NCBI GenBank assembly: GCA_015231755.1
Contig: JADGAZ010000003.1
Span: forward strand, 62,001-126,000
Direction: 5' to 3'
Origin: Magnetococcales bacterium
GTDB lineage: Bacteria; Pseudomonadota; Magnetococcia; Magnetococcales; Magnetaquicoccaceae
Length of the DNA stretch: 64,000 nt
In this document: positions 6,133 to 27,900 of the stretch, one piece after another
Layout: each line of letters starts with the position of its first letter
Numbering within the stretch: position 1 is the first letter of the stretch
The notes under the pieces: generated by a model
The model's input: only the letters and a program-made list of their open reading frames with translations
Database searches by the model: none
Told to the model about the DNA's origin: nothing
Position numbers and translations under genes: made by a program

Positions 6133-8553
6133 TCACAAAGGATTTTCCTCAAGGGCCGGACGCCAACGAATGGGATAGACCCGTTTGCCCTCTTTTTTCT
6201 TGAAAGCCGCCGCTGCCCGATCCGCTTCCCCCACCGTGGCATAATGGCCAATCCGTACCGAAAACCGTGGCTTGCCATCCCGATCCAACTCCCGCACCAC
6301 ACTGGCCGCATACCCTTTGGCCAGCAGCTTATCAGCAGTCCCCTTGGCCCCCTCAAGCTTGTCCCCATACTCCACCTGCAAGGCATATCCCTCCACCGCC
6401 TCGCTCCGGGTATCGGGAGTCGGCTCCACCTTGACCGGAGGCGCGACCACAGGCTTCACCGCCTTGACCGGCTTGGTCTCCTTGGTGGGAACCACAGCCG
6501 CCGGCTGACTTGCGGACTCTTTCTTCTCTGGTTTAACCTCCGGGACATACGGCAAAATATGCTCGAAATCCGGCAACGAAGAAGGCTTCAGAGGAGAAAT
6601 CAACCGGGAACCCTGGGACTCCCCGGCCCCCCACGCCTCGGAACTGGCTCGGAATTTCTCCCCGGAGATCTTCACCAACTCATCGAACTGGTTGGTGATC
6701 ACCGGACGAATGAACACCATCAAATTGGACTTGTTCTGGGAGCGACTGGTCTTCTTGAACAGCTCACCCACCCCGGAAACCCCACCCAGACAAGGCACCA
6801 TGCCCACCTGATCGCTCTGCTCCTCCTTGATCAGCCCCCCCAGCACAATGGTATGACCACTCTTGAGATTGACCGTGGTTTTGATGGAACGCTTGTTGGT
6901 CACCACACTGCTGCCCAAGGTACCCGCATCCAACTGTTTGATGCTGGCGGGGGTGACACTGGACTGCTCTTGATAGATTTTCATCTCCAGCCATTGGTCC
7001 TCGATCACCCGGGGAGTGACCCGCAAGGTCAATCCCACATCCTTGCGCTCCACGGTCTGGGAGGTGACGCCCGGAGTGGCACTGGAAGAAGCCGCGGTCG
7101 AACTGGTGGTTCCCGATACAATCGGAATATTCTGACCTACGATAATTTCAGATTCCACCCCATCCATGGTCACAATGTTGGGGGTGGCGAGGATATTGAC
7201 ATCCCCTTCGGAGTGAAAAGCCCGAATCAATGCCGGAATGTTGGGCACCGTGGTGGTGCCCCACTGAATCGCGCCATGCATCAATCCCACGGCCATGCCG
7301 TTGCCGGTATCGAGGGGATTGGTGACGGTATCGCCAAACGACGACCCGCCAAAGCCGGTCAACGCCTTGGATCCGACTCCGGGAATGCTGCCAAAACGCC
7401 ATTCGACCCCAAACTCGGCAGCCCGGTCCGCGGTGACTTCGATGATCAAGGCCTCCACATGCACCTGCAAGCGCCGCTTGTCCAATCCCTGAATGATGGG
7501 CAACAACACCTGATAATCCTCCGGCGTGGCAGCGATCACCAAAGTATTGGTGGACTTCTCCCCCACCACATTCACGGAACGCATGAATTCCAACGGCTTG
7601 AGATCATCATTGCCCGCCTTGGCCGCGTTGGTGGACCCCATCAGGCTGGTCAACACCTTGGCAATGGCCTCGGCCTCACTGTTGCGGGGATAATACAAGT
7701 GCAGATTGCCCGGCGCGGTCACCACCGGATGATCCAAACCCGCCACCAAGTGTTCCACCTCCTTCATCTGCTCCGGGGCGCACACGGCGATCAGAATGTT
7801 GCTGCGGGCATCGGCGAACAGCTTGACCCCGACATCCTCTTTTCTTCTGCGGCTGTTGAAATCGGCAAAAACCGAATTGCCCAGTTTTTCCACCGTGAGC
7901 GCCGACGCGTGCTGCAACGGAAACAAACGCCGTTCCGCCAGACCCACCGGCACATCCATGGCCTCGATCAGACTGATCAGCTTGTTGGCTGTGATCGCCG
8001 CATCCGTGACCACCAGGGCATTGGTGGGCACATGGGCCGCCAGAGAGCCCCAGGGATGCATCAAGGGTTTCAAGGTGGAGGCCATGGAGTTGGCATCCAC
8101 ATGCCGCAGGCGGACCAATCGGCTCAAAACCATTTCATCTTTGGGAGGCGTCGGACCAGGCTGCAATACCGGCGTTCCCCCTTCGGAGATCCCGGACTTC
8201 AACGGCACGATCTTGAACGCCCCATCCCGTTCCACCACGGTCAACTCGTGGACACTCAAAATCGATTCAAAAATCTTTTCCGCCTCCCCCAGGGAAACCG
8301 GCGTGGGGGTAACCACCGTCACCTTGCCCTTCAACTGGGGATCCAGCACATAATTCTTGCCGGTCATCTCGGCGATGAAACGCACCACCTGGGCGAGTTC
8401 CACCCCTTGAAAATCCATGGTCACCCGGTCACCCGGTCCGGGCATCACCCCGGAGGCGGCATCCACCGCAGGCGTTGGGGGATTCTTGGCCGCAGGGGCC
8501 GCTTCCACCACGCCAACCCAAAAAATCAGCAATAAAAGACCAAAAAACCTCAT
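6133..8553 (-). CDS. gspD: Type II secretion secretin GspD with C-terminal SPOR-like domain
   Basis: 806 residues from ATG 8553. The frame extends 20 codons further to a TTG, but ATG 8553 opens directly into a signal peptide (MRFFGLLLLIFWVGVVEA). The N0 domain (VTMDFQGVELAQVVRFIAEMT) is followed by several N-domains and the secretin core (VPNIPALIRAFHSEGDVNIL, GLTLRVTPRVIEDQWLEMKI, VVLGG-type turn at IVLGGLIKEEQSD). After the secretin S-domain region there is a Pro/Lys/Val-rich linker (~640-720) and a final ~80 residues (YALQVEYGDKLEGAKGTADK, YPIRW) that look like a SPOR fold, which in other proteins binds denuded peptidoglycan. GspD forms the outer-membrane channel. The SPOR-like tail is unusual for a T2SS secretin. 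Confidence 0.93.
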   Translation of the reverse strand: MRFFGLLLLIFWVGVVEAAPAAKNPPTPAVDAASGVMPGPGDRVTMDFQGVELAQVVRFIAEMTGKNYVLDPQLKGKVTVVTPTPVSLGEAEKIFESILSVHELTVVERDGAFKIVPLKSGISEGGTPVLQPGPTPPKDEMVLSRLVRLRHVDANSMASTLKPLMHPWGSLAAHVPTNALVVTDAAITANKLISLIEAMDVPVGLAERRLFPLQHASALTVEKLGNSVFADFNSRRRKEDVGVKLFADARSNILIAVCAPEQMKEVEHLVAGLDHPVVTAPGNLHLYYPRNSEAEAIAKVLTSLMGSTNAAKAGNDDLKPLEFMRSVNVVGEKSTNTLVIAATPEDYQVLLPIIQGLDKRRLQVHVEALIIEVTADRAAEFGVEWRFGSIPGVGSKALTGFGGSSFGDTVTNPLDTGNGMAVGLMHGAIQWGTTTVPNIPALIRAFHSEGDVNILATPNIVTMDGVESEIIVGQNIPIVSGTTSSTAASSSATPGVTSQTVERKDVGLTLRVTPRVIEDQWLEMKIYQEQSSVTPASIKQLDAGTLGSSVVTNKRSIKTTVNLKSGHTIVLGGLIKEEQSDQVGMVPCLGGVSGVGELFKKTSRSQNKSNLMVFIRPVITNQFDELVKISGEKFRASSEAWGAGESQGSRLISPLKPSSLPDFEHILPYVPEVKPEKKESASQPAAVVPTKETKPVKAVKPVVAPPVKVEPTPDTRSEAVEGYALQVEYGDKLEGAKGTADKLLAKGYAASVVRELDRDGKPRFSVRIGHYATVGEADRAAAAFKKKEGKRVYPIRWRPALEENPL

Positions 8554-8609
8554 GAGTCGCTTCCAGATCACACAAAACAACGGATAAACAGGATCAACAT
8601 GGCCTGAAA

Positions 8610-9497
8610 TCAATTCCCGATGGTCAACTCGATGCTCTTCGGCTGATTGTCCCGCAACAAGTCGATCCGCAGCGTGGACATCCCTTTCAATTGATTGGCC
8701 AATTGACCGATCTTCTGGGCGTCGGTCACGGAGATGCCGTTGACCTGCTGGATCACATCATCGGGCTGCAAACCCAATTTGGTGAATTCGGTCTTGGAAT
8801 CCGGAAACTTGACCCGATATCCCAAGGAATCCTTGCCCTGATAAAACGGTGTGATGTTCACCCCCGCCAGCAGCCCCATGCCCTTGTTGAGCATGGCATC
8901 ATACTCCGGTCTTGGAATCGTTTGCACGGTCGCGACAGCAGTGGCGGGAGCCGAACCCATCACAGCCTGCGAGGCGCCGCCGCCGGCTGTTTCCGGTTTC
9001 AAGCGATCCTGCATGGCGATCCGTTCCATACGTCCCCGATTTTCAAAATAAACCGCATTGCGCTCGATACGCTTCAGATAGGCCCCATCCACCTCTTCAC
9101 CAATCTGCAAGACGATCTGGCTATTGGGATCCTTCTTGCGGGTCAAAATCGCCCAGGAAAGATGGGGCAGAATCATGGAACCGATGAGATTCAATTCCAG
9201 ATTGGAATCCACCGCCACCTCTTTGACTTCCGCTGGACGGGGGGCGGGCTTGTCTTTTTCCACCGCCGCACTCTCCCAGGGATTGAACGCCTTCAGGCCA
9301 TCCAGAACCGTGGCGCCGGAAAGCGCACGCTGGGTTGCCCCACCCCCCTTTTCGGGTTGAAGCTGAACCGGTTCGCCTACCTGAACAGGGTCTGGCAATG
9401 CCAACCATGTGACGCGGGAGAGTTCCAGGCCCATGCATGCCGCCACCAGATAAGGCGCATATCGCGCACCCAGATGGTTCCAGGAGGATGGATTCAT
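8610..9497 (-). CDS. gspC: Type II secretion protein GspC
   Basis: 295 residues from ATG 9497, preceded on the minus strand by a run rich in A and G; the longer frame to 9569 has no supporting signal. One N-terminal membrane segment (~10-28, YLVAACMGLELSRV region) is followed by a linker. The homology region comes next (LNLIGSMILPHLSWAILTRK, then VLQIGEEVDGAYLKRIERNA). The protein ends in a PDZ-like domain (FTKLGLQPDDVIQQVNGISV). GspC links the inner-membrane platform to the secretin N0 domain and helps select substrates. It is the first gene of the gspC-D-E-F set, directly downstream of a very large secreted-protein gene, from which it is separated by a hairpin at 9536-9566. Confidence 0.9.
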   Translation of the reverse strand: MNPSSWNHLGARYAPYLVAACMGLELSRVTWLALPDPVQVGEPVQLQPEKGGGATQRALSGATVLDGLKAFNPWESAAVEKDKPAPRPAEVKEVAVDSNLELNLIGSMILPHLSWAILTRKKDPNSQIVLQIGEEVDGAYLKRIERNAVYFENRGRMERIAMQDRLKPETAGGGASQAVMGSAPATAVATVQTIPRPEYDAMLNKGMGLLAGVNITPFYQGKDSLGYRVKFPDSKTEFTKLGLQPDDVIQQVNGISVTDAQKIGQLANQLKGMSTLRIDLLRDNQPKSIELTIGN

Positions 9498-9518
9498 GCG
9501 AGACCAAAAGAGAGGACT

Positions 9519-9566
9519 AAAAAAAACAGGAAGGAGTGCGGGAGCGGAACAAATCCGCTCCCGCAC
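9519..9566 (-). terminator. Hairpin and T-run between the large Big-domain gene and gspC
   Basis: Bases 9536-9548 and 9554-9566 form a perfect 13-bp stem (GTGCGGGAGCGGA with its complement) and an ACAAA loop. On the minus strand the stem is followed, after about 10 bases, by eight T's (9519-9526). It lies 10 bases past the stop of the upstream gene. The distance from stem to T-run is longer than in ideal intrinsic terminators, so it may only partly reduce read-through into gspC. Confidence 0.65.
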
Positions 9567-9575
9567 CAAGCGTGA

Positions 9576-12500: not shown

Positions 12501-15167
12501 GGTGGTGCTGGTCTTGGTCCAGGCCGTGGCCGCAGAGCCACCGGTCACGGTCAAGTTGGTGGTGTCACCGGCAACCAGGTTGACGGCGCTGACGTTCACC
12601 GAGAAGGGCACCAAGGCCAAGGTCACATCCGTGACCATGCTCTTGGTAATGGTTCCGGTGGAGGCATCAATCAGAATGTTGTGGGTGGCCGTATCCGTCA
12701 AAGGCATCAGGACGGTGGTCACGGTGGTGGTGGCCACGCCATTGACCGGCGTCACCGTTTTGGTAAGGGTGCCACTCGTTCCGAGGTAGCCATAAGTGGC
12801 AGCATCCAGAACAAAGGTGACATCGCTGGTGGCAGCCGTCGCGGTATTGCCATACTGATCCTTCAGGGTACCGGTCAAGGTCACCTGGGAGGAGGAGTAG
12901 GAACTGACCTTGGTGCTGCTCAGGCCCAAAGAGAGTTGCGATGCGGTTCCGGCAGTACCGGTGGCGGTGAAGGTAGCCGGGGTCGTGACGCCGGTAACCG
13001 CGGCGGTCACGCTGTTGGCACCCGCCGTGGTACCCAGGGTCAAGGTGGTGCTGGCCAGACCGTTGGCATCGGTGGTGCCGGTAGCGGCACTCACGCTGCC
13101 ACCGCCGCTGGCCACCGCGAAGGTCACCGTGGCATTGGAGACGACATTGTTGTTGGCATCCTTGACGACCACCGTGAACGGCGTGGTCAACGCGGATCCA
13201 ACCGTTCCGCTCTGGGCGTCACCGGCACTCTTGGTGACGCTGGCAGCGGCACCGGCGGTGGCGGTCAGGGTGAAGGTCTGAGAAGAGTAACCCGTGGCCG
13301 TAACCGTCACCGTGTAGGTTCCCGCGGTGGTACCCAGGGTCAGGGCCGAAGAGGTGGCCACGCCTTGAGCGTTGGTGGTGGCTTTGGTGGTGGTCGTGCC
13401 GTTGGCGAAGGTGCCGCCGGACGTGGTGAAGGTCACTTCCACACCCGCGCTGGGGGTGGTCCCGGTGGTCAGGGTGACACTCAAAGGATTGGTCACCGCG
13501 GTTCCGACCGTGGCGGTCTGGCTGTTGCCGGAGGTCTGGCTCATCGCGTTGAAGACCAACGACACCGTCAGATCGGCCACGCTGGTGGCCGCGATCGTAT
13601 CGGTGGAGGCATCCACCACGATATTGAGGCTGGAGGATCCGCCTGCGGGCTGGGCAATGGTGGTCAGGGTGGTCGTGGCGACACCATTGACCGTGGTGAC
13701 GGTGGCGGTACCAATCGAGCCATACGTGGTGGCATTCGTGGTGAAGGTGACCGACTTGGCAGGAGAGATCACCGTATTGCCATACTGATCCTTCAAGGTA
13801 CCGGTCAGGACCACCTGATTGGCAACCGTGGCGCTCACGGTAGTGGCGGCAGCGCCCAGAACCAACTGGGAAGCGGTGCCGGCGGTGCCGGTGGCGTTGA
13901 AGGTGGCCGGAGTCGCAGCACCGGTCACCGAGGCGGTGACACTGTTGGCGCCCACGATCGTACCCAGGGTCAACGTGGTGCTGGCCTGACCTTGAGCGTT
14001 GGTGGTAGCGGTGGCGGGATTGACGCTGCCGCCGCCAGTGGCCACTGCGAAGTTCACCGTGGCATTGGAAACGACATTATTGTTGGCATCCTTGACCGTG
14101 ACCGTGAAGGGCGCGGCCAAAGCGGTTCCGACCATGGCGGTCTGATCGGTGCCTGCGCTGGAAACGATGCTGGCAGCGGCACCGGCAGTACCGGTCAGGG
14201 TAAAGGTCTGGGAGGTATAACCCGTGGCAGAAGCGGTGACGGTATACGCGCCCACCGTGGTGCCCAGGGTAAGAGCGGGGGCGGTGGCAATACCGTTGGC
14301 ATCCGAAACCGCCGTGGCCGTGGGACCCGTGGCGAAGGTGGCACCACCCGCGGCGGTGAAGGTCACGGTCACACCGGCGTTGGGGGTGGTTCCGGTGGCC
14401 AGGGTAACACCCAGGGCCGTTCCCACCGCGGAACCGGCAACCGCGCTTTGGTTGTTACCCGCAGTCACGCTCATGGAGGGCGCGCTCACAGCAAGGGTCT
14501 TGGTGCCTTGGGTGTAAGAGGCGGGGGTGGAGCCCTTGTTGTCCGACACGGCGATGAACTTGGCCTTGACCGCCGAATTGCCCGCCGTCGCACCACTCTT
14601 CACCAACAATTTCAGCGTGAAGAACTGATAATTGCTGATCACCGCTCCGGACTGATTGAACGAAGCCGTGCGGGTATAGTTGATATAGGCACGATTCGCG
14701 GTCCCGAACATCGAATCCCCGGAGACATCCTGATCGGAGATGCGCAGTTCCATCACGTCCGTATCACCCGTGGTCTTCCAAAGCTGGGTGATGCGGTTGT
14801 TCTGGTCGTTCTGCTTTTGTCCAAACTGACCGTCCAGATAGGGTGTTTTATGGGGATCGTTATCCCCGGCGGTCCCCAGAGCGGAGGAGGCATCCAGAGC
14901 GAAAACGCTCTTGTCCCACTCGACCACGATGCCCGCCGAACTGATGGCGGTCGCCCCGGCATCGGCTGCGGAAACGGCAACCGTCACATCCACAGTCGCT
15001 CCGACGGCCACCGTATCGGCACTGCTGGTCACCAGCAGGGAGCCACCCGTGGCAGCCCAGACTTGACCACTGGTCAAAATCAATACAGTCATGGCTAACC
15101 ACCGAAGCGTGGCGGCCAATCGGCTGCCCGACTCCTTCCTTACACCCTGAAACGGCCATGTAATCAT
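9576..15167 (-). CDS. Large secreted protein: cohesin-like domain, Big/Ig-like repeats, CFI-box C-terminal anchor
   Basis: 1863 residues from ATG 15167 (GAGGTG upstream; a GTG three codons earlier sits too close to that site). A signal peptide (LRWLAMTVLILTSGQVWA) is followed by a cohesin-like beta domain (~45-225; begins SLLVTSSADTVAVGATVDVT). Two tandem ~310-residue units (~234-543, ~544-856) each hold three bacterial Ig-like domains with motifs such as VKDANNNVVSNATV and LTGTLKDQYGNT. More Ig-like and a transthyretin-like domain (~1330-1425) follow. The C-terminus has GGGGCFIATAAYGS (~1755), the CFI-box signature, then a hydrophobic helix and an Arg-rich tail, which suggests anchoring or sorting at the cell envelope. 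No enzyme motif is visible. It is probably a surface or matrix protein; its position next to gspC suggests T2SS export (inference). Confidence 0.88.
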   Translation of the reverse strand: MITWPFQGVRKESGSRLAATLRWLAMTVLILTSGQVWAATGGSLLVTSSADTVAVGATVDVTVAVSAADAGATAISSAGIVVEWDKSVFALDASSALGTAGDNDPHKTPYLDGQFGQKQNDQNNRITQLWKTTGDTDVMELRISDQDVSGDSMFGTANRAYINYTRTASFNQSGAVISNYQFFTLKLLVKSGATAGNSAVKAKFIAVSDNKGSTPASYTQGTKTLAVSAPSMSVTAGNNQSAVAGSAVGTALGVTLATGTTPNAGVTVTFTAAGGATFATGPTATAVSDANGIATAPALTLGTTVGAYTVTASATGYTSQTFTLTGTAGAAASIVSSAGTDQTAMVGTALAAPFTVTVKDANNNVVSNATVNFAVATGGGSVNPATATTNAQGQASTTLTLGTIVGANSVTASVTGAATPATFNATGTAGTASQLVLGAAATTVSATVANQVVLTGTLKDQYGNTVISPAKSVTFTTNATTYGSIGTATVTTVNGVATTTLTTIAQPAGGSSSLNIVVDASTDTIAATSVADLTVSLVFNAMSQTSGNSQTATVGTAVTNPLSVTLTTGTTPSAGVEVTFTTSGGTFANGTTTTKATTNAQGVATSSALTLGTTAGTYTVTVTATGYSSQTFTLTATAGAAASVTKSAGDAQSGTVGSALTTPFTVVVKDANNNVVSNATVTFAVASGGGSVSAATGTTDANGLASTTLTLGTTAGANSVTAAVTGVTTPATFTATGTAGTASQLSLGLSSTKVSSYSSSQVTLTGTLKDQYGNTATAATSDVTFVLDAATYGYLGTSGTLTKTVTPVNGVATTTVTTVLMPLTDTATHNILIDASTGTITKSMVTDVTLALVPFSVNVSAVNLVAGDTTNLTVTGGSAATAWTKTSTTAGTLSGTTGTAVTYTAGSVAASTTDTVTASDSIGGTPVTSAVNVTVYTPVGTSWTTATAAVLGQTMTLIINGGNGNYTCTSSAPAVATVTATATSSTCTVTTVATGSFTIMVQDTATYQGTSKTTNSSTTAAVEVVHPITVTSAKNTDGKVYLDTSTNKSYTITATGGKTTSYTYSSSNTAAATVSSDGVVTAQAAGTTEITLTSTAYTNITQKLVVVVMGPIAIKDTATTPSEITTSQIATSGGSGLTFTLTGGSTNYAVAATGPGSYSATLTATNGVYTFNPPTTGAFAGVYTVTVTDTTAGLTKTMTVNVPYKVTASKSTILGTDTTQLITVTGGAAGDIFKLTMLDGAGTADANGAIAGLSSTASSSTGSATLTATAVTGTGTNPAMGYIVPKSTLTAVTLFKVKAVLQTNNADSTNSWATVTSNAVSILPVTTYALTVSDSSGTAMSGAVVTLRSKSEVETTMGSAITISATDANGKTSVSLPVGGTYTFNVVPANLTTHQTGSITLASGTTSGTVTLRKIGTPMKYTGTLVNSASLAATVTAVDASGNKVEGSIVGTTFTVWVDTSVFTPVNLYVSATGGLAVKKAVSEATTSCVNSSDVAQTTLTTQATCIAVTGNVWKGTFSTLTLAAAPTSLSTASTAIQTAVTTQVTHTTPSALQASDIVTAAVQPISVGTTDATSIDLSSKLTTVGAVKVTVPLDAFSATDVGQVYVTARGAKLSSTNASTTTAYNRAAITGGEVVEIDLVAFDSNGTQLSTSSGNTTINSSVGIPVSIPVNLSTLLTKVGLTTMDVTTINSRIVVYTAPTLQDFLDNKNVTTISGATFDSSTNTVKVNMPHFSVVVPSVSETTTAATKSGGGGCFIATAAYGSYEAPYVKLLREFRDEYLLTNEAGSWFVEQYYAHSPAAADWLREHDTWKAVVRVLLLPLIGMSWLLLHGTMSMTMALLALLIAVPFGIRGWRRARLAKAC
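12610..14477 (-). repeat. Two tandem ~0.93-kb coding repeats (310-residue units)
   Basis: Inside the large Big-domain gene, residues ~234-543 and ~544-856 are two consecutive copies of the same three-domain unit. Each runs in the same order: a first domain with LATGTTP/LTTGTTP, a second with VVKDANNNVVSNAT, a third with LTGTLKDQYGN. Many short segments are identical between the units, so a tandem duplication built this part. Boundaries are approximate. Confidence 0.7.
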
Positions 15168-15331: not shown

Positions 15332-16195
15332 TTATTTCAAGGCGTCAATGGTTGAAATCACCGTGGTATTGGTCTGTCCGGTTGGCAATACCACGCCAGT
15401 ATCGATGGTGGAACCGGCATTCAAACGACGCAGGATCAAAACTCCGTCGCTGGCACTGACTCCTTTATCCTTGTCCACATCCAGACTCAAACCTGCCGCA
15501 TCGATCATGGCAATCACCGAGGCATTGGTCCGCCCCTCCCCCAGCACCACGCCGGTATCGATGGTGGAGGCTCCATTCAGCCGACGCAGGATCAACACAC
15601 CATCCGTGGCATCCACCGTACCGCTCTGATCCACATCCAAAACGGCAAAAGCGGAATCGGTGCTGTACAACAAGGCACGCCCCGCGGTCAGAGTATAACC
15701 GTTCGCCATGCCACTGGCGGTCAAACGAACCGTTGTGCGACCCGTCACCCCTTCAGCCACCTTGAAACGGACCGTGAACAAATTGACAGGCCAGGAAGAT
15801 CCAACACCCGGCCAGTTGCCATCGAGGGAGACCCAGGCCAGACCCACCCTTTTATCCGTGGCCCCATCGCCATCCCCGTCATCAACATCGTCTACCGGTA
15901 GCGTGTCCTGTCCGATCAGGGCCAGTCTCTTCTCTCCGCCAAGATTTTCCCCGGAGTGCAAAAGATCCGAGAAACCATCAAAGGTCAACCGGCTGGAGTC
16001 GTAATGAATCCGCAATCCCAATCCAGTCGTCTGGGATTCCGTGGGATTGGTGGTGGCATACCCGACGGTCACACTCACGGTTTCCCCGGACGCGATGTGC
16101 TGAGTGGTCACCTTGGGGGCAACCACCTGTTCCCTGGCCCAGAGATCCGAAACAAACCAGGGAAACAACAACGCCAGGAACAGCAATCGCGTCAT
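15332..16195 (-). CDS. Small secreted protein with cohesin-like domain and two dockerin-like EF-hand modules
   Basis: 287 residues from ATG 16195, which opens a signal peptide (MTRLLFLALLFPWFVSDLWA). Residues ~22-180 resemble a cohesin beta-sandwich (HIASGETVSVTVGYATTNPT, LGLRIHYDSSRLTFDGF). They contain an Asp-rich loop (VDDVDDGDGDGATD) that could bind calcium. The C-terminus has two ~50-residue dockerin-like repeats. Each starts with an EF-hand-like calcium loop (LDVDQSGTVDATDGVLILRR; LDVDKDKGVSASDGVLILRR) and continues into TIDTGVVL...G.TN..V...IDA. Cohesin and dockerin partners normally bind each other with calcium in extracellular assemblies. Having both in one small protein suggests an adaptor or self-assembling link. 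No catalytic domain is present. Family names rest on motif recognition; cohesin is less certain than dockerin. Confidence 0.82.
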   Translation of the reverse strand: MTRLLFLALLFPWFVSDLWAREQVVAPKVTTQHIASGETVSVTVGYATTNPTESQTTGLGLRIHYDSSRLTFDGFSDLLHSGENLGGEKRLALIGQDTLPVDDVDDGDGDGATDKRVGLAWVSLDGNWPGVGSSWPVNLFTVRFKVAEGVTGRTTVRLTASGMANGYTLTAGRALLYSTDSAFAVLDVDQSGTVDATDGVLILRRLNGASTIDTGVVLGEGRTNASVIAMIDAAGLSLDVDKDKGVSASDGVLILRRLNAGSTIDTGVVLPTGQTNTTVISTIDALK

Positions 16196-16213
16196 GGACC
16201 CTTGGTCCTCACG

Positions 16214-16245
16214 TTGCCCCTCCCCATGGAGAGGGGGAGGGGCAA
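16214..16245. terminator. GC-rich hairpin after the PKD-domain gene
   Basis: A 12-bp perfect stem (TTGCCCCTCCCC at 16214-16225 with GGGGAGGGGCAA at 16234-16245) and an 8-base loop lie in the 64-base gap between two secreted-protein genes. No T-run follows in either direction, so it may be a weak or factor-dependent terminator or an mRNA processing structure. Confidence 0.45.
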
Positions 16246-16259
16246 CCATGAGTGTGCCA

Positions 16260-18812
16260 CTATTTGAGCGCATCAATGGTGGCCTTCACCGTATCGTTCG
16301 TCTGACCCGAGGGCAGAACCACACCGGTATTGATGGTGGACCCCCCGTTCAGACGCCGCAGGATCAACACACCATCCGTGGCATCCACCGTTCCACTCTT
16401 GTCCACATCAAACACCATCCCGGCGGTATCGATGGTGGTCTTCACCGTATCATTGGTCTGACCCGAGGGTAAAACCACACCGGTATTGATGGTGGAACCG
16501 CCATTCAAACGCCGCAGGATCAATACACCATCCGTGGCATCCGTGGTGCCGCTCTTGTCCACATCCAGCGTGACGAGGTTGGTGCCGCCACTAAAGGTGA
16601 TGGTGACCGTCGAAGCGGCGCTGTTCTGCTTGCCATCGTTGACCAACAGGCTGAAGGTGTAGGTCCCGTTCACGGTCGGCGTGAAAGTCGGCTTCTGGGC
16701 CGTGGTGGAGGACAACACGATATTGGACCCGCCCGGCTGGCTGACAATCGACCAGGTGTAGCTCAAGGAGGTATCCGACGCGTCCACATCGGCACCGGAT
16801 CCATTCAGGGTCACGGCACCCGCCGTGCTCACGGTTTGGGCCGATCCGGCATTGGCGGTGGGGGCGTTGTTGACCGTCACGGTCACGGTGGACGGTGTGG
16901 CGCTGGAATGCAGTCCATCGCTCACAGTCAGACTGAAGACCAGCGAACCCACGGTACTCGGGGCCGTGAAGGTCGGTTTGGCGGCGGTGCTGGAAGAAAG
17001 GGTGACCGAACTGCCGAAAGTCTGACTCCAGGCATAGGTCAGATTGGTGCCCGCATCGGCATCCGAAGAGCCGGAACCATCCAGGGTCACGACCGCTCCG
17101 GGTGCCACCACCTGGGCGCTGCCGGCCTTGGCCACCGGACGGGTGTTGACCGTGATGGTCACGGTGGCGCTGTTGGTGCTGTTCTGGGTTCCATCGTTCA
17201 CCACCAGACTGAACACATAGGAACCGGAAACGGTCGGGGTGAAGGTCGGCTTCGAGGCCGAGGTGGACGACAGGGTCACCACCGACGTGGCGGGACTGGT
17301 CTGGGTCCAGGTGTAGGTCAACGCATCGCTATCCGTATCCTGTGAACCGGTACCATCCAGGGTGACGACACTGCCGGCTGCCACCGTCTGCGCCGAACCG
17401 GCATTGGCGACCGGTGCGTTGTTGGCGGTCACGGTGACACTCTTGGCGGCAGAGGCCACCTTGCCATCGTTGACCACCAGAGCGACCACATACTTACCCT
17501 TCACATCCGGCGTGAACGACGCGGACGGAGGCGAACTCTGGGTGATGAAACTCGAAGCGGTTCCAGCGGTCCCGGTGGCCAAAGACGATCCGGTGGGTTT
17601 GCTGGTCAGAGTCCAGATGTAGGAGGTGAGAGTGTCGCCATCCTGATCCGAGGATTTTGAACCGTTCAAGGTCACGGCACTGCCCGGGGCCACCGTGACA
17701 TCACTGCCCGGATCGGCCACGGGAGCATTGTTGGTGCCGGCCGCCGCATTCACGGTCAGAGTCATGGTGGCCGCGGAACTGTTCTCGAAGCCATCGTTGA
17801 CCACCAGGGAGAAGGTGTACGAACCCGCGGTCTTGACCACCACCGTCTGGGCACTGCCAGTCAAGGTGGAGTTGGCCGACAGCGTGGACGAACCCGAGGT
17901 GATGACCGCACTGGTGGGCATACTGGTCAAAGTCCAGGTATACGTCGAGAGGGTATCCCCATCCGCATCGGTGGAGGTGGCCCCCGTCAGCGAAACCGAA
18001 GCCTGACCGCTGCTCAAGGTCACGGTTTGATTGCCTCCCGTGGCGGCAGTCGGCGCGGTATTGGTGGAGGTATACTTGCTCACCGCCGAAGCCGTCTTGG
18101 ACCAGGGGGTGGGATTGATCACCTTGACATCATAAATCCCCGGAGCCGTGCTGGCCGGCACTGTGGCCGTCAACTGACTGGAGCTGACAAAAGTCACGTT
18201 GGTCAAGGCGACATCCGACAAGGTGACGGTGGAACCACTGACCGTCCGTTTGCCGTTGACCAGTTGAATCGTGGCTCCGCTCATGAAATTGGTGCCATTG
18301 AGGGTCACGTTCACTGCGGATTTATGGGATCCAGAGGCCGGAGAAACCGGGGACGTGGCATCCAACGTGGGCGCGCTGTTCAGAACATAGGGACCGACCT
18401 TGGTAATGGCAGTGGCTCCAACCAATCCTCCGCTATCCGAGGCGCGAATGAAAAAATAATAGCTGCCATCCGCCAGGGAACTGGCCGTCACCGTGGTGCT
18501 GTTGCTCAGGCTGCCACGCTTCAAGGTGGTGGACTCCGCCGTGGACAGGCGCGTCTCGAAGGTGGTGGTGTCCAAAGCGGTATCGGTGCTGACCACATAT
18601 TCGTAAGTAATCGACGAACCGGAAATTCCGGAAGTGGCGGCTGTCCAGGAAAAAACAATACTGCTGTTGGTCGAGGAGACCGACGCGGTATGACTCGTGC
18701 TGGCGACCCCATTCACCGCACTGCCGCTGGTAATGGCCGCACCCGCGCTCAGGGCCGATACAACCCATACCATCACGGCCAAGAATACCTGAATTGCGTG
18801 ATTACGTTTCAT
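16260..18812 (-). CDS. Secreted IPT/TIG and PKD-repeat protein with C-terminal dockerin-like modules
   Basis: 850 residues from ATG 18812, preceded by AGGA seven bases upstream; a longer frame starts at 18839 without a better signal. A signal peptide (AIQVFLAVMVWVVSALSAGA) leads into a fibronectin-like region and an IPT/TIG domain (~170-245, VTLNGTNFMSGATIQLVNGK). Five PKD-type domains follow, each opening with N.AP.A..G and DGSGS/STDADGD signatures. The last ~100 residues are two dockerin-like repeats (LDVDKSGTTDATDGVLILRR and FDVDKSGTVDATDGVLILRR, each followed by INTGVVLPSGQTNDTV). These are almost identical in protein and DNA to the modules of the neighbouring 287-residue protein. No enzyme domain was seen. 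PKD proteins are usually surface, adhesive or matrix components. Confidence 0.86.
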   Translation of the reverse strand: MKRNHAIQVFLAVMVWVVSALSAGAAITSGSAVNGVASTSHTASVSSTNSSIVFSWTAATSGISGSSITYEYVVSTDTALDTTTFETRLSTAESTTLKRGSLSNSTTVTASSLADGSYYFFIRASDSGGLVGATAITKVGPYVLNSAPTLDATSPVSPASGSHKSAVNVTLNGTNFMSGATIQLVNGKRTVSGSTVTLSDVALTNVTFVSSSQLTATVPASTAPGIYDVKVINPTPWSKTASAVSKYTSTNTAPTAATGGNQTVTLSSGQASVSLTGATSTDADGDTLSTYTWTLTSMPTSAVITSGSSTLSANSTLTGSAQTVVVKTAGSYTFSLVVNDGFENSSAATMTLTVNAAAGTNNAPVADPGSDVTVAPGSAVTLNGSKSSDQDGDTLTSYIWTLTSKPTGSSLATGTAGTASSFITQSSPPSASFTPDVKGKYVVALVVNDGKVASAAKSVTVTANNAPVANAGSAQTVAAGSVVTLDGTGSQDTDSDALTYTWTQTSPATSVVTLSSTSASKPTFTPTVSGSYVFSLVVNDGTQNSTNSATVTITVNTRPVAKAGSAQVVAPGAVVTLDGSGSSDADAGTNLTYAWSQTFGSSVTLSSSTAAKPTFTAPSTVGSLVFSLTVSDGLHSSATPSTVTVTVNNAPTANAGSAQTVSTAGAVTLNGSGADVDASDTSLSYTWSIVSQPGGSNIVLSSTTAQKPTFTPTVNGTYTFSLLVNDGKQNSAASTVTITFSGGTNLVTLDVDKSGTTDATDGVLILRRLNGGSTINTGVVLPSGQTNDTVKTTIDTAGMVFDVDKSGTVDATDGVLILRRLNGGSTINTGVVLPSGQTNDTVKATIDALK

Positions 18813-18933: not shown

Positions 18934-21900
18934 TTAATTCGTCACGTTCAGGCTCAAATCCAAAGTGGCCCCTGCGCTGGTGGCGGTGACACTTCCCGTG
19001 GCATAACCACTGGTCACGCTCCAATCCGCGTTCTTGACCTTGGTGGCGCTGAACGCTTTCACCGTATAGCTCTGGTTCGGCTCCAGACCCTCCAGCTTGT
19101 ACACCCCGGTCGTCCCATTGGCGACCGCACGGTCCTTCTCCACGCCACTGGCGTCATACGCGATCACCATCGCACCACCTGCCGCGCTGCCGCCGCTGGT
19201 CACCGTGCCCTGAACGATCCCCGCCGCCTTGACCACCGTCAACGTCACGCCGGTCTGGTTCGCCCCGTTCACCGTCACGTCCGTGCCCGCCGTCCCTTCC
19301 AGCGTCCACACGTCCACCTTGTAGGTCGCGTTCGACAAACCCTTGATCGTGAACTCTCCCTTGGTGTTGGTCACCGCGCCGCCACCCATGGAATTGCCAG
19401 ACGACCAAGCGTTCACCCATGCCCCGCTCACCGCGTTGCCGCCACTCGTCACCGTGCCCTTGATCGCGTAACCCGTCAACATGGCCACGTTCAAGCCGGT
19501 GGTATTGCCGTTGATCGACACCGTTCCCACATCGTTCCAGCCGCTTGTCCAGCTCGACGCCGTCACCTTGTTGTCGCTCACCGTCACACTCTTGGTCCGC
19601 TGCGACACATACCCGCTCGAACTCACCTCCACCGTATAATTACCCGCCGGCAATCCCTCCAGCGTGTAGTTCGCATTCCCGGTCACACTCGTCCGGGATC
19701 CCCCCGTCGACGACCAAGCGTTGATCTCCACCACCTGATCCGCCGCCAAGCCGCTCACCGTTCCCGACAGCGTGTAGAATAGATTGCCCGCCGCCGTCAG
19801 ATTGAAGTCGATTCCCTTCGTCGCTCCCGCGTTGACCACACTCACCTTGCTGTGATTATCCCACACCGGCGTCACGCCACCCGTGGCGTAAAACACCCCT
19901 TGATAACCACGCCACACACCCACCACGTAGTCGGTTCCATCCGGCACGCCGCTCAACGTATAGGCCGCCGATCCGTTGGCATCCGCGGTCGCTCCCCCCA
20001 CCACGAACGCGTCCGTGGCCGGCGACCACACATCCACCCGTACCCACTCCTGGGCCTTCAGACCCGTGATGGTTCCGGCAATGCTGCCTCCCGTCGAAGC
20101 CGTGAAATCCACTCCCGTCACGTCCCCGCCGCTGGTGTTCACATCCGACTTCTTCTGCGTCATATACCCGTCCGCGCTGAAGGTCACCTTGAAGTCCGTT
20201 GCCGAACCCACACCGGCGATCGTGTACGCATCCGCACCCGATCCCGCAGCCTGCACCGCGTTTCCGCCCCAGGAATAGGTGCTGTTGGACCAGGCATCCA
20301 CCCAGCCCCATTGCGCCTTCTTCATGCCGTTCACCGTACCGGCGATCGACTTGCCGGACGACACCACCAGATCGATCGTCGCGTCACCACTGGTCACATT
20401 CACCAGCTCCGCGCTCTCCCAGGCTCCCGGCGCCTTGCCGTTGCCGGCATACGTGCCACCCTGAATCTGGCCACCCCAGATGGAAATCCGGTAATCCTCC
20501 GCCGCTTCCAGACCCTTGATCTCCACCTGATCGCTGGTACCGTTTCCATACGACACCTCTCCACCGCCCCACGACCACGTCGTCTCCGAGAAGGCATCTA
20601 CCCACGCTTTCTGACCGCTCTTCAGGCCAGACACCTTCACCGTCACCTTGCGGCCACTGCCCACCTGCATGGACACATAATGATCGCTCGACATGTCCAG
20701 CAGCGTCGCCCGATCCCAGCCCACCAGACTCCCGAGCGTGGCCGGATAGTCGCTGGCACCCACCTCTCCTTTGAAGTTGCCCGTCTTGAAGCCCCCATCC
20801 GGACCACCCACGAACAACCGGTAATCCTTCCCGCTGGCATCCAGACCCTTCAGTTCAATCAGCGCCTGACCAGTGCTGTCCGCCGTCCCCTGCTTCCAGC
20901 GACCCGCGCTCAACTCTTCCGACCAGACGTTGGCATCCACCTTCGCACCGGCGACCAGACCCGTCACCTTCACCTTCAAGGTCTTCGAGGTCACCGCCGC
21001 CAAATCCACCGCCACACCCGTCACGTTGCCGTTCAAGGTGCTCAACAGCGTCGCCTTCTCCCAACTCTTCGGACCCGACGCCCCTCCCCCGGCCACACCG
21101 CCATAATATCCCGACGGCACATCCTCCACGTCCGATTGCCAATCCAAACGATAGTCTCCCGCCTGGGCCAGACCCGATACCTCAAAGCTCACCGCTCCGC
21201 TTCCGGTCCCCACCACTTCGGTCCCGCCCCAGACCCGTTCGCTCTCCGACCACACGTTCACACGCACCTTCGTATCCTTGCCAAGACCCGCGATCGTGCC
21301 GCTGATCTTCGCTCCCGCGTTCATCAAAAAGTCCACGTTCTCCGGACTCTTGCTCCCCGAAGCGTCGATCAGCGTCGCTTCATCCTCTTTGCCCGCGTTC
21401 TTGTAATAGGTGGTGCGATACAAACCGCTCCAACCCCAGACCACACCCACATAGTTGTTGGCCGGCGCCACCGTCACTCGGTAATTGCCGTTTTCGTCCG
21501 TGTTGGCTCCGTACCAACGGCTTCCGTCCTGACTGTGAATGTCCACCCAAGTCCAGGCCAGACCGTTGTTGCTCCCGTCCGTCACACGGCCAGAAATGGT
21601 GTTGCCGGTGCTCAGGGTGAAATTCACGACCACGCCCCCGGCGGGATTCTCCTGAATCACCTCACCGGCGACGGGCTTGGCATAACCATCCTCCGCTTCA
21701 ACAAACTTGTCCTTGGCCCGTTTGTACACCCCGGTTACACCCTGGGGTTCCACCTTCACCAAAACCGGATCCGGGGACAAATAAGACTCGCTCCACACAT
21801 TGACTTCGTACCAGACCACCTTGCCCGCAGCGGGTTTGTGGATCAGGAGAGAGTATTGACCCGTGGAATCCGAAGCCTTGCCCGCGCCCTGGCGGGTATC

Positions 21901-24900
21901 GTGAGACCAAGCATTGACCCACAGATTGGCAATCCCGTTGCCCGAGCCATCCTGGATCGTGCCGGTGATGGAAAGACCACTGCCCACACGTACCAGCAAT
22001 CCCTGGGTTCCATTACCCAGATCCATCAACGGCCAAGCCACTTCGCCGGTGGCGTCCGCGGTCAGATCCTTTTCAAACGCCAAAGCCTGTTGCCCGTCGC
22101 TGGACACGGTATAACCATCGGTGGCATTGCCAACCACAGCCCCGCCGATGAATCCAGTCCCCTCGATCCAGGCTCCGGTTTGGGGATCCTGATGACCACT
22201 GGGGGAAATATTGATGTCAAAGGTGTTGTTCACCCCCTGGGTCAGATTCACCGAGGGCAGATTCAGGGTGAAATACCCCCCCTGATCCGTGGCCACACCA
22301 CCCAAAGGCGTGTTGACCCACGCATAAGGCACACCTTCATTCGCGCCATTGACCACCCGTCCGTGAATCGGCTTGCCCGCGTCCACCTGAACGCCAATGG
22401 ATAACGATTTGTCCATCAGGATATTGGTCACGGCATGGTCTTCCCACTGGGACATTACCATGCCCGGCACCACACCCGCCACCTGACCGGAAATCCCGTT
22501 ATGGGTCAGGATGTCGGTGGTACTCACCAGACTCGCCTTGACCAGGGGCCGGGTTTTGGAATCATCCTTCACCCAACGGCTCACCCAGGAGGCTTCCGGG
22601 GGGGTGATCCAACTGCCGCCCTGGAAATTCACCGCATTGCAAGACGATTGACCACTGCCACCGGTGCCGGTACCGGTCTCACAGTAGGACGGCCACACCT
22701 CCACCCGATACTCCTTGTTCGGGACCACCAGCACGGAGAAGTTGCCTTCCGCATCGGTCCGGGCGTGGAAATTGGTATCCCAATCTTTGTCATGCACGCT
22801 CACTTCGGCTCCCGTGACCGGGGCGAGCGCAGTGCCATTGGCCTGCACCACTTTGCCGGAAAGGGTCATGCCGGTCACCATGCGGGCATCCACCACCAAA
22901 GGACCAGTCACCCGGAAAATCTTGGCACTGGACCAGTCATGCACCACCTTGCCATCCCCATCCGCATAACCACCCACCAAACCACCGGGCAACTTCACCT
23001 CTTGCGGCGGGTTGGTATCCCATTTCCAGTAGGAGGTGGCAAACTCGATGCGGTATTTGCCCGGCTGCACCGAAAACTCGTACTGACCTGTGGCACTGGT
23101 ACGGGTCTCCGACCACAAACCGGAAGAACCGGTCTCTTCATCCCACTCGGGTTGCAAACGCACCGTCACATCCTGGATTCCGGTGGTGCCATCCGTGGTC
23201 ACGGTACCCCGGATGGTCAAACCGGCGATCAAGGTCGCGTTGACCGTGGTATCCGCGGTGAATGTATATTTCTTGGCGGTGTCGGAAGCACCATTCAGTT
23301 TGTTGTCCGCGGCACCGGTGCTGTAACCACCCAGACCGTCCAGCTTGACCTGTTTCTGGGTCTGCCAGTCATAATAACTGGTGCTGAAGTAGACCCGATA
23401 GACCGATCCCTTCTTGACGAAAATCTCGTAGTTGCCATTGGCGTCCGTGGTGCCCTGTGCCCATTCGGAAGTACCCGTGGTGCTTTCCCAGTCGGGTTGC
23501 AGCTCCACCCGCACACCCTGAACCGGCTGCTGATTGGCATTGACCACCTTGCCCGAAATGCGCATCCCGCTGACCATGGTGGCATTGAGGGTCGTGGCCT
23601 GCGCGAAATCGAACACTTTCGCGTCTTCGGAGCGTTCGACGGTGCCGCCTTTGTCGTCGGCATACCCGCCTTGCCCCAGCACGCCAGGAACTTTCACCAT
23701 CGACATGGTGGCGTTGTCCCAATATTCGGAGCGGAACTGGACGCGATATTTGCCCGGATAGATATCCACCGAATAGTGTCCGGCCCCATCGGTTTTCACC
23801 GAAGCCGCATCCACAACCCCGGTGTTATGCTCCCAATCGGGTTGGAATTCCACCAGGATGTTCGGCAAGGCCCCCTGACCACCACTCACCGAACCGGAAA
23901 CCGTAATCTTGGTTGTGGTCCCCGGATCGCCACCACCACCGCTGGTCTGATTGTAGGCTGAAGTCAACGACACGGTGCCCAGATTGAGATCGTTCTGAAG
24001 GTTTTGACTCATGCCCTGGGTCCTGGAAAGACCGGTGGTCTCGCCGATGGAGGCGACATAGGCCATGGCCACAAAACCGGTGCCCACATATTTGAAGGCA
24101 AAGCTGTAAGAACCGGCATCCAACTCCACGTCAAAAGCGCCGTTGGCCGTGGTATGAAACACCAACGGCGTCTGACTGTTGGCGGGATAGACGATCAGGT
24201 CGGCGTTGACCAGACCATGGGTTCCGTCGGTGAGGATGCCGGTGATCCGTTTTTTGCCCGTTGAGGAGCCGGCACCCCCCACCACCAGCACCAACTCGCC
24301 ACTGGTGGGGGAAACCTGGAAGGCGGCGGCAGTGGTGAGATTGCCACTCTGCACATTGACCGTTCCCGCGGCGGCATCGGCTTTGTACCAACCACCGGTG
24401 AAGGAACCCGCACCATTGTTCGGCCACACCCCGAGACAGTAGGTGCCATCGGCGAGCACCGCGGCAATCTTGCCCTCCTGGTCTGTACCGAAATACTGGC
24501 CTTGTCCGGAAACGCACGCGCCATTTTCAAACGGCAGAATCTGGATACCCGCATCCGCCACCGGGGTATTGCTGGCCGTGACCACCCGGAAGGAGACATT
24601 CCGGCCCTGATCCGCGGCACTGAGGGTCAACACCTGGGGATCCGTCAAGGAGGCGGTTTCCACCTGGAGATTCTTGCGGACAAATCCAGCCGCGCCGAAC
24701 GTGACATTCAGAGAGGTGACCTCATCTCCCACCGGGGCATTGAGACGATTGAACACAGTCAACAAGGCACTGCTGGTGCCGGGGGTTTCGTTGAACGTGG
24801 CGGTGGCGTTGTGGGAATGGGGCGACGCATAGGCGCTGGAGGTGTGTTCGGCCCGGGTCTGGACAAAGGCGTCCTTGAGAATCACACCCGCCGGTCCATC

Positions 24901-27900
24901 GATCCGCACCTTGCGGGCCTTGACCTGATCCGTGGTCAGGGACTTCAGCACGCCGGCGGCATCCACCGTGGCCCGCAGAGATCCCTTCCACATGCCATCG
25001 TTTTCCTGATTGTGTTCAAACACCACACCCAGGCCCTGGGCCAAATAGACATGATTGACCTGGGACGAGGACGCGGCCCCACCCTGGGGTTGATAACGGG
25101 TCTCCACCATCCGTATATGGGCCGCGTGGGTGACCTTGCTCAAAAGATCCGCATCGGTGATCGAGTCGCGCCAATGGGCGAAGTACTCGTCGTTCATCAG
25201 GTCCGTGGGCGGCACGGAATCCAGCAGATTGACGTTTCCGGTCACGGTGATCTCGGACTTGGTGATGGTCCACTGGTCGATCTTGACCTTGCCATCCTCA
25301 TCCAGGGGGAAACGGATCGAAAACTGGGAATGGGTGTACCCGTTGGTGACGGTTGCCGGCACCAACGGACTGGGCACGGTGAAATTGGAGGTGGCGAGAT
25401 CCGCGGCGGTAATGCCCGCGACGGGATCGGGTTGGGTCTTGAAACCAAAGTCAATGAAACGGGTGGTCCGGTTCTGACCCGGCTCCACTCTTTTTTCCCC
25501 GTGGAACGTCAGTCCGTTGGAGTCCAGGGTATAGTAGTTCTCTCCATGAGTGCTCTGTTCCACGGAGACGGTACGATCCATCAACGTGGCGCTGCCACCG
25601 GCCCGTGAGGGTTGAATGGAGAATTCGGTCATGGGGTTGGACGGCTGGGAGGACTGCCAGCGGCCATGCGTCACCAACGTGAGATTCGCCGGAAAGAGCC
25701 ACTGGGTCATGTCGATGGAGGTGACCGGGGTGGCAGGATCCACACAGGTGACCGTGGTGGTGGCCTGATTGGTCCCGAAGGCCACCGTCAGGGTCGCGCT
25801 TCCCGCCTTCTGACAGGTGATGGGCACCCCCGTCACGGAGGTATTCCAGGTGATCACATCGCTCCCCGAGGTGACCGTGACAGTCGGGGTACCACTGCCG
25901 GTGGGCAGGGGAAGGGTACGCCCGCCACCCACGGTCATGTTGATCGGTTCCATGGGAATGGTCGTGGTGGTGCCGCCACCTCCGCCGCTGGAGGCCGTAC
26001 ACGTGACCGGCACAGAAAAGCTGTGCGCGGCATTGTCCTGGACCAGAACGGTGGAACCACCCTCTGCGGCGCAAGTCACGGTAGCGGTGGCGTTGTTCCC
26101 GACGACCGTGATCAACGCGCTGCCCGCGTCAAACCGATAGGGGGCGACACCACCCGACACCACGAGGTCGCCGCTTCCGCCCACCACCCGATTCAACGCG
26201 GGGGGATAAACGGTCAACGGAACCGGTTGGGCCGCATTCGGAGAGAAACGAACCCGCGCGGGACGATTGTTGCTCCAGTCCCCATTGCTGCCCCCCTGGG
26301 GCCAGATCAGACCAACCGTATGGTGGGTAAAGAAACCCAGTTCATAGGTGGCGCCCGGATCGATCAACGACAACGGCCAAGCAACCTCCATGGTCTGGGT
26401 GGTGGTGTTGACGGTCAGGGTATCCGACAGCTTCACATAGGCGTTGTAGTCACGGGGATTGGCGGCGGTGTTGTACAGTCTGGCGTAAACCCCTGTGGCA
26501 TCCTGAAACAGCTCCACGGAGAAAGCCGGTCCACCCGCCTGGACAGGCATGAAGTTGACCCAATAGTTGACGTATTCACCGGTGGGCAGTTGCAAGGAGG
26601 CGCGATCGATGCGCAGATAGGCCTGACTGGCATCCCGGGCCAGATAGATCCCCGTGACATCCAGACCCGAGAAACCATCTCCCTGGTCTCCCAAAGCATC
26701 CACCAGCATCGGAGCCAAAGTGCCCCAATCCGTGGGGGCGCCATCCACGGTGATGGTGGCCTGAGGCACCACGAACACCATATCCTCCAGAATATCCGGG
26801 ATACCGTTCTGGTTGACATCCTGGTTGAGGCTTTCGTGCCGGAAATTGTAGACTCCATCCGGGAACACCCCCCCCAAGGTGGCATCGGGGAACAGTCCAG
26901 ACGGCTTGTTGCCGCTGAAAGAGGGCAGAATCCCCCGCAGGCTCACCCCGTCGAACCACTTGGCCAGATTCAGGGCCATGGAGCGGGTGCCTTCCGTGAT
27001 CTGGGCGGTCCCGGCCAAAGCGGCCTTGAAGTCGTTCAGGACTTTGGTGGCATCGGCGACTTCCCGGGCCTCCAGGGTGAAGAGATCATCGTCTTGCGGA
27101 TCGCTTTCCGCCTGAATGGATGGAATCGCAGCCAGCAAGGCGTCCGCCGCCATGTTCCAATGACTTTTGGCCGCGGCCAGATTGGTGGAGGCATACGGGG
27201 ACAAGGAACCGAAATTCGGATTGTTCAAGAAGAGTTGTTCGGTATTCACGCCCATGGCGGCATCGATGTCGATGTTCCAGTCATAAGCCTGATCGATATA
27301 CAATTGGCCCAGCATCATCCCCAGCAGACCCTTGAACATCAGCACATCGGAGTAGTCGATCTCCGTCTCATCCGGCTCCTGACTGCCCGGATCCCCCACC
27401 TTGAAAGAGGCCATATCCGTGGGAAGCTCGTTGAGCAGGGCCAACGAATCGTTGAAGGCCGGAATCATGGCGGCATTCAACCAGCCGCTGAGATCCTGAC
27501 CGGTCGGAGAGGCGATCGGCAGGGTCTTGGGACACTCCATCTTCTCCAGTCCCAGATGACGACGGGTACAACCGAATCCGGCCAACAGATCCCCCAGAGT
27601 GGCGCCGGCCGTGGCATAAGTGGTGGTTCCAGCCGAAGAGGATTGGGCGGTATTGGTCGCGAGGGCGGCAATGCGGGAAATGGCGTGCAGGACGTGGGTG
27701 GCATGCTTGCGGGCATCCCCGGCGGCAGTGGCTTTCTCATCGGCCTTGGCAAAAAAGGCATCCGCCGCCACCATCCAGCCATGGCCGAAGGCCAACGACA
27801 TGCCATAGTCCACCAGGGAGGGGACATCCAGAGTGGCGTAACGATCCATCAAGGTTCTTTGGATGGAACCAAAGGGGACGGTCGAACGCAACGCGGTGGC

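Follow-up and report, generated by a model that had tools for sequence, protein, structure and literature searches.

Two adjacent genes of a Magnetococcales bacterium, termed here P1 and P2, end in copies of one tandem repeat, and the question raised by this locus is what the repeat does for the proteins that carry it. The genes lie in a window of 64,000 nucleotides (positions 62,001 to 126,000 of the forward strand of contig JADGAZ010000003.1, assembly GCA_015231755.1). Coordinates given without a contig or locus label refer to the window, and all features located by them are on its minus strand. Judged by its sequence, the module is a dockerin variant with predicted calcium binding. The locus probably encodes a non-cellulosomal cohesin-dockerin surface complex, which would be exported by the type II secretion system (T2SS) and loaded with proteases and with PKD, RCC1 and Lcl proteins.

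The repeat module and its carriers

The open reading frame of P2 (16260-18839, 859 residues) encodes a signal-peptide-like N-terminus, PKD domains and a C-terminal dockerin-like pair at 16263..16565 (repeat 1 at ~16565-16410, repeat 2 at ~16409-16263). In P1 (15332-16276, 314 residues), a cohesin-fold N-terminal domain is followed by the C-terminal pair at 15335..15637 (repeat 1 at ~15637-15482, repeat 2 at ~15481-15335). The initial annotation had reported two modules per protein, four in all, with a shared sequence. This was confirmed: 28 of the 52 columns were invariant across the four modules, and a search with the P2 pair matched P1 at E 2.4e-38, far beyond chance. The reported EF-hand-like loop with a conserved tail was borne out as well, but the period was determined to be 52 residues instead of 50, each pair consisting of loop, helix and tail helix, twice. 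The consensus of the P1 and P2 copies was DVDxSGxxDATDGVLILRRLN-GxSTI(D/N)TGVVLPxGQTNxTVxxTID.

The pair was found on six proteins of the genome: P1, P2, an M10 matrixin with PKD domains, an S8 subtilase, an RCC1-like protein (L021 2981-5119) and an Lcl_C protein. A module private to the two genes is thereby ruled out, and the earlier idea of a sorting or binding tag gained in support, the function itself being predicted. The expectation that all carriers end in the module held in part: the pair was C-terminal in P1, P2, the matrixin and the subtilase, whereas in the Lcl_C protein it directly followed the signal peptide and in the RCC1-like protein it stood ~120 residues before the end. The RCC1-like carrier may use another export route. 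A tblastn search of plasmids with the module pair gave no match.

The Dockerin_1 profile of Pfam (PF00404) spanned both loops of the pair, aligning from position 3 to the last of its 57 positions and treating the tail as an insertion. The contrast once drawn with the close loops of standard dockerins thus stood for the linker length but not for the alignment, which still ran across both loops. In whole-protein scans with hmmscan, the score of P2, 23.0 bits, was over the cut-off of 22.9, whereas those of P1 (21.9 bits, residues 214-286), the matrixin (20.6 bits) and the Lcl_C protein (20.1 bits) were below it. The genome scan matched all six carriers. Four passed the cut-off with a single hit, P1 exceeded it only with in-frame neighbours (28.2 bits) and the subtilase stayed below (15.7 bits). 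The best PDB chain for the profile of the six pairs was the dockerin of Clostridium thermocellum Xyn10B, 2ccl_B, at a weak E of 0.022, and 1ohz_B was also listed. Two further regions of the genome over the Dockerin_1 cut-off, C13:87735 and C27:17027, were rejected as family members, as they are calcium repeats of another kind in very large proteins. Other EF-hand-like regions over the cut-off lie near the C-termini of L023 2702-8821 (2040 residues) and L024 4425-16553 (4043 residues).

The standard loop spacing was present in 46 of 48 loops. At the predicted calcium ligands of these 46, position 1 was D/N in 45, position 3 D in 45, position 5 S/N/D in 44, position 9 D/N/S/T in 44 and position 12 D in all 46. 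The pattern used for finding the loops itself demanded an acidic residue or N at positions 1 and 3 and D at position 12; positions 5 and 9, conserved in 44 of 46 loops each, are less constrained by the pattern and thus more telling. Both repeats were near-identical at positions 10, 11, 18 and 19 (A in 41, T/S in 45, R in 46 and R in 35 of the 46 loops, respectively), the positions at which dockerins touch cohesin. Such repeat symmetry is described as serving binding in two orientations in type I dockerins (PMC12484212).

In the AlphaFold2 model of mature P1, helices were predicted after loop 1 (176-186) and loop 2 (228-238), each followed by a tail helix (204-218 and 256-266), so that the extra tail closes with a helix in both repeats. 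The local predicted local distance difference test (pLDDT) values of this loop-helix-helix-loop-helix-helix part were 66-89. The rows of the structure search with the whole P1 model contained no dockerin chain as such and were filled by the cohesin half. Ordinary dockerins have a shorter linker helix between the two loop-helix units, and the period of type I dockerins is about 30-36 residues. The module resembles the type I dockerin in the helix that follows each of its two EF-hand-like loops, in the near-symmetric repeats and in having exported enzymes and PKD proteins as carriers. It differs in the period of 52, in the second helix after each loop-helix unit, also after repeat 2, where the dockerin has been described as loop-helix-helix-loop-helix (PMC12484212), and in its carriers, which are proteases and surface proteins with no glycoside hydrolase among the six.

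The tail had been regarded as a departure from known dockerin-like repeats. This did not hold, as longer relatives have the tail at the same place. At E<=0.001 the module matched 7 of 397 Pseudomonadota genomes, of which two belong to other orders. In both of these and in one protein of the own genome, the longer version LRYLFGFRGxALxxGAV...RT...I..YL was found. The own-genome carrier of the long type (contig C10, L095 5367-10211, 1615 residues) has the pair at its end, which gives the genome two dockerin types. Short and long types parted at a 100/100 branch in a tree without the two out-of-order genomes.

The modules of P1 and P2 had also been called near-identical in DNA, a likeness attributed to recent spreading. 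The DNA identity between them was 71-79%, with matches at 10 of 22 to 17 of 25 fourfold-degenerate sites, and modules from different genes were generally about 70% identical. As the claim of near-identical DNA failed, recent spreading was rejected. Over all 15 own-genome gene pairs the fourfold identity was 0.477 versus 0.449 expected from codon use; the protein likeness is thus kept by selection or old homogenisation. Recent copies were detected only within proteins, between repeats 1 and 2 of P2 (87% DNA identity) and of the matrixin (93%).

Cohesin-type domains of P1 and P3

P1 more likely begins with Met 28 of the reading frame (~16195, chosen by eye), after which comes a signal-peptide-like stretch. 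In its model, the N-terminal domain (15650..16135, mature residues 1-162) has the cohesin fold. Cohesin or scaffoldin entries accounted for 24 of the 26 Foldseek chains at E<=0.001, and the best row in VIA was CaCohA2 with Z 10.3, 135 aligned residues and a root mean square deviation of 3.2. The Pfam Cohesin profile (PF00963) gave 18.4 bits with the domain alone, below the cut-off of 24.1, and matched one of four homologues at E<=0.1. The NCBIfam scan of P1 gave no match, and no PDB sequence was matched at E<=1 by the cohesin profile of P1 or of P3. The only paralogue of the P1 cohesin detected in the own genome was P1 itself.

The next gene downstream of P1, termed P3 (9576..15176), encodes a cohesin-like N-terminal domain (14481..15056), a Big_1/Invasin_D3 stalk, a CFI-box-CTERM (~9905-9699) and a membrane tail. 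The hydrophobic stretches and basic tail (~9737-9579) were present in all six P3 orthologues examined. Cohesin was the top Pfam family of the P3 head (E 8.8e-5, 23.2 bits as a domain, just below the cut-off of 24.1) and matched three of five homologues; the P3 orthologue of the relative G006 was over the cut-off with in-frame neighbours. Among the 22 Foldseek chains with E<=0.001, 11 were cohesins, the folds being mixed and the first row being CLIPPER 9ifr. The head is a probable cohesin, with a CnaA/CLIPPER-like adhesin domain as the alternative. Like known cohesins, the P1 domain has the fold and the P3 domain has Cohesin as its top Pfam match; unlike them, both score below the Pfam cut-off in the own genome and comprise about 160-190 residues against the 139 positions of the profile. 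Pfam cohesins were rare in the phylum: at E<=1e-4, a single genome among 397 had one. The initial annotation overlooked the cohesin-type domains in the same reading frame (P1) and in the next gene (P3).

Linkage to the secretion genes and distribution among relatives

Directly behind P3, four consecutive T2SS genes follow in the same orientation. They encode a GspC-like protein with a PDZ domain (8610..9569; T2SSC E 8.9e-6, 26.0 bits, just under the cut-off of 27) and a GspD secretin with a C-terminal SPOR domain (6133..8613), a GspE ATPase (4440..5966) and GspF (3202..4440). The SPOR domain on GspD is, to our knowledge, unusual.

The distribution was determined in 61 genomes, the own one (G000) and 60 relatives. 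P3 orthologues were present in six of them, G000, G006, G005, G009, G002 and G030, five of which belong to one genus and the sixth to another family. In all six, GspC was encoded directly behind P3 and a gene adjoining P3 carried the dockerin pair, namely P1 in G000, G006, G005 and G009 and P2 in G002 and G030. A close T2SS variant, defined by GspC at E <1e-30 and GspD at >500 bits, was found in nine genomes, the six with P3 and G023, G036 and G045; G040, with a GspC piece at 2.4e-30, was not counted. P3 occurred in six of these nine genomes and in none of the other 52 (Fisher p 1.5e-6, kinship uncorrected).

Eight genomes had module matches, 36 in total (G000 6, G006 4, G002 1, G005 12, G009 5, G030 3, G004 4, G010 1). 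Those above 60 bits were confined to the six P3 genomes, and short-type dockerins with clear scores occurred in the same six. The matches of G004 were weaker, and those placed on the tree were of the long type; G010 had a single fragment with an internal stop. The association of P3 with the modules resulted in a Fisher p of 5e-7, likewise uncorrected for kinship.

The carriers were orthologous: outside the module, the identity to the own genome was, for example, 60-64% for the matrixin, 54-70% for P2 and 84% for the Lcl_C protein, the near copy in G006 excluded. The matrixin of G004, a genome without P3, was 64% identical to the own one outside the module and carried a long-type dockerin. The dockerins themselves grouped by genome and not by carrier gene. 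The tree of 24 rows, drawn from the 36 matches (G000 6/6, G006 4/4, G002 1/1, G005 8/12, G009 3/5, G030 1/3, G004 1/4, G010 0/1), needed 9 label changes versus 14.3 after shuffling, and none of 200 shuffles was as low. A tree of 29 rows needed 12 versus 17.9; it contains five additional rows, two of them from the Pseudomonadota-wide match set, while three of eight extra loci gave no usable pair. The three short-type dockerins of G009 formed one clade in both trees (93/93 and 80/92), and the P1 dockerins formed a distinct clade in the tree of 24 rows (98/98). The dockerins of the close relatives G000 and G006 sorted by gene instead. One shared partner per genome would explain why dockerins group by genome while their carriers are orthologous; ancient gene conversion or separate gains would explain it too.

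Upstream of P2, a giant protein of 3127 residues with CarboxypepD_reg repeats is encoded (18934..28317), and a second one of 2803 residues is next in the row (30521-38932); both share the orientation of the T2SS genes. A CarboxypepD_reg-like protein, recognised by eye and not by a family scan, has its end directly ahead of the dockerin gene in the relatives G005, G006 and G030, and one is present in G023. In G023, the slot directly before gspC (L120 4089-7979) is occupied, in place of the CFI-box anchor, by a secreted protein of 1297 residues with a tail of GGGGG, a hydrophobic stretch and RRFRK, which we take to resemble GlyGly-CTERM anchors.

Readings of the locus

Drawn from the computed module family, P1 cohesin fold, gene order and linkage, co-occurrence and co-clustering, the arrangement would be as follows. 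The dockerin module would plug its carrier into a cohesin. P3, with its cohesin-like head, immunoglobulin stalk, CFI-box and membrane-spanning tail, would be the surface anchor, and P1, having both cohesin and dockerin, the adaptor or extender linking P3 to other dockerin-bearing proteins. The cargo would consist of P2 and of the carriers scattered over the genome, namely the matrixin, the subtilase, the RCC1-like protein and the Lcl_C protein. The parts would be exported by the T2SS encoded directly behind P3, and extracellular calcium would fold the dockerins, the complex then assembling on the cell surface. P1 could even polymerise head to tail, because it combines a cohesin with a dockerin that hardly differs in class from the others of the genome; the result would be a calcium-dependent, T2SS-exported, non-covalent fibre growing from the P3 anchor, with P2 and the proteases as side or end caps. 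This extension is speculative and rather improbable, and the distinct clade of the P1 dockerins might as well reflect docking of P1 on P3 alone.

Several observations weigh against the surface complex. The structural models were of low to moderate confidence for P1 (mean pLDDT 64.9) and weak for P3 (57.2). The P3 head resembled the CnaA-like domains of CLIPPER and pilins as well as cohesins, a pilin being on top in VIA with Z 12.1 and the best cohesin reaching 10.9, and the P1 and P3 profiles aligned over 49 columns only, with a probability of 15. P1 was absent in G002 and G030, and the adaptor is consequently dispensable. The RCC1-like carrier had no signal peptide. The dockerins of G005 formed one clade with 24 rows (88/93), which dissolved with 29 rows (3 changes), and on the G005 side the similarity among orthologous dockerins equalled or exceeded that within the genome.

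Other readings of the locus were weighed. If the P3 head were a CnaA/CLIPPER-like adhesin domain, only P1 would have a cohesin, which would bind P2 and other clients. The first place of CLIPPER 9ifr in Foldseek and the leading pilins in VIA speak for such a head. CLIPPER (DUF11), a CnaA-like isopeptide domain, is a stalk domain of Gram-negative adhesins, and the paper describing it makes no mention of cohesins (PMC12617251). Against it stand the Pfam assignment of the head and of three of five homologues to Cohesin and the two genomes in which P3 adjoins a dockerin protein though P1 is missing; we regard the adhesin head as doubtful. The module could also be a calcium-folded export or stability tag, which aids the passage through the T2SS or caps termini and binds no cohesin. 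The position at or near the terminus in most carriers and the abutting T2SS genes agree with this, as does the general behaviour of dockerins, which are folded by calcium outside the cell after export. The cohesin fold in one carrier and the cohesin-like head next door would then be a coincidence, and the matrixin orthologue of G004 has the other dockerin type though that genome has a T2SS secretin. Such a tag is unlikely. That the 50-residue module is entirely new, without relation to dockerins, and has recently spread as a tag is highly improbable: the Pfam scores near the cut-off would allow it, but both loops align end to end to Dockerin_1, and synonymous sites at the codon-use level in the fourfold-site test contradict it.

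The proposed surface complex shares with the anchoring and adaptor scaffoldins of cellulosomes a cohesin anchor, an adaptor with cohesin and dockerin, and dockerin clients. It differs in its Gram-negative host, in one cohesin per protein and in the CFI-box and membrane tail instead of SLH domains or a sortase signal. Neither P3 nor any of the six carriers showed a glycoside hydrolase or a carbohydrate- or cellulose-binding domain in Pfam, in a survey confined to these proteins, and by that measure the system does not class as a cellulosome. Peer and colleagues have reportedly surveyed dockerins and cohesins in microbes that are Gram-negative or non-cellulolytic. Both modules are known from such organisms (PMC2386152), and subtilases with Dockerin_1 are on record (PMC2605481). 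A parallel considered was Saccharophagus degradans 2-40, likewise Gram-negative and with non-cellulosomal modules: two dockerin-like reading frames and six with cohesin-like modules are described, with binding left open, and the passages describing the modules mention no T2SS gene linkage (PMC2386152). Among the open-licence papers searched, none was found on such a cohesin-dockerin system in Magnetococcales or tied to a T2SS or GspD.

That cohesin-dockerin pairing is not confined to cellulosomes has long been noted, with partners and purpose mostly open. Here the cohesin, the adaptor, the clients and the export machine are encoded in one conserved locus, which makes the partner and the function directly testable. 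The locus suggests that a T2SS can carry its own surface-docking kit.

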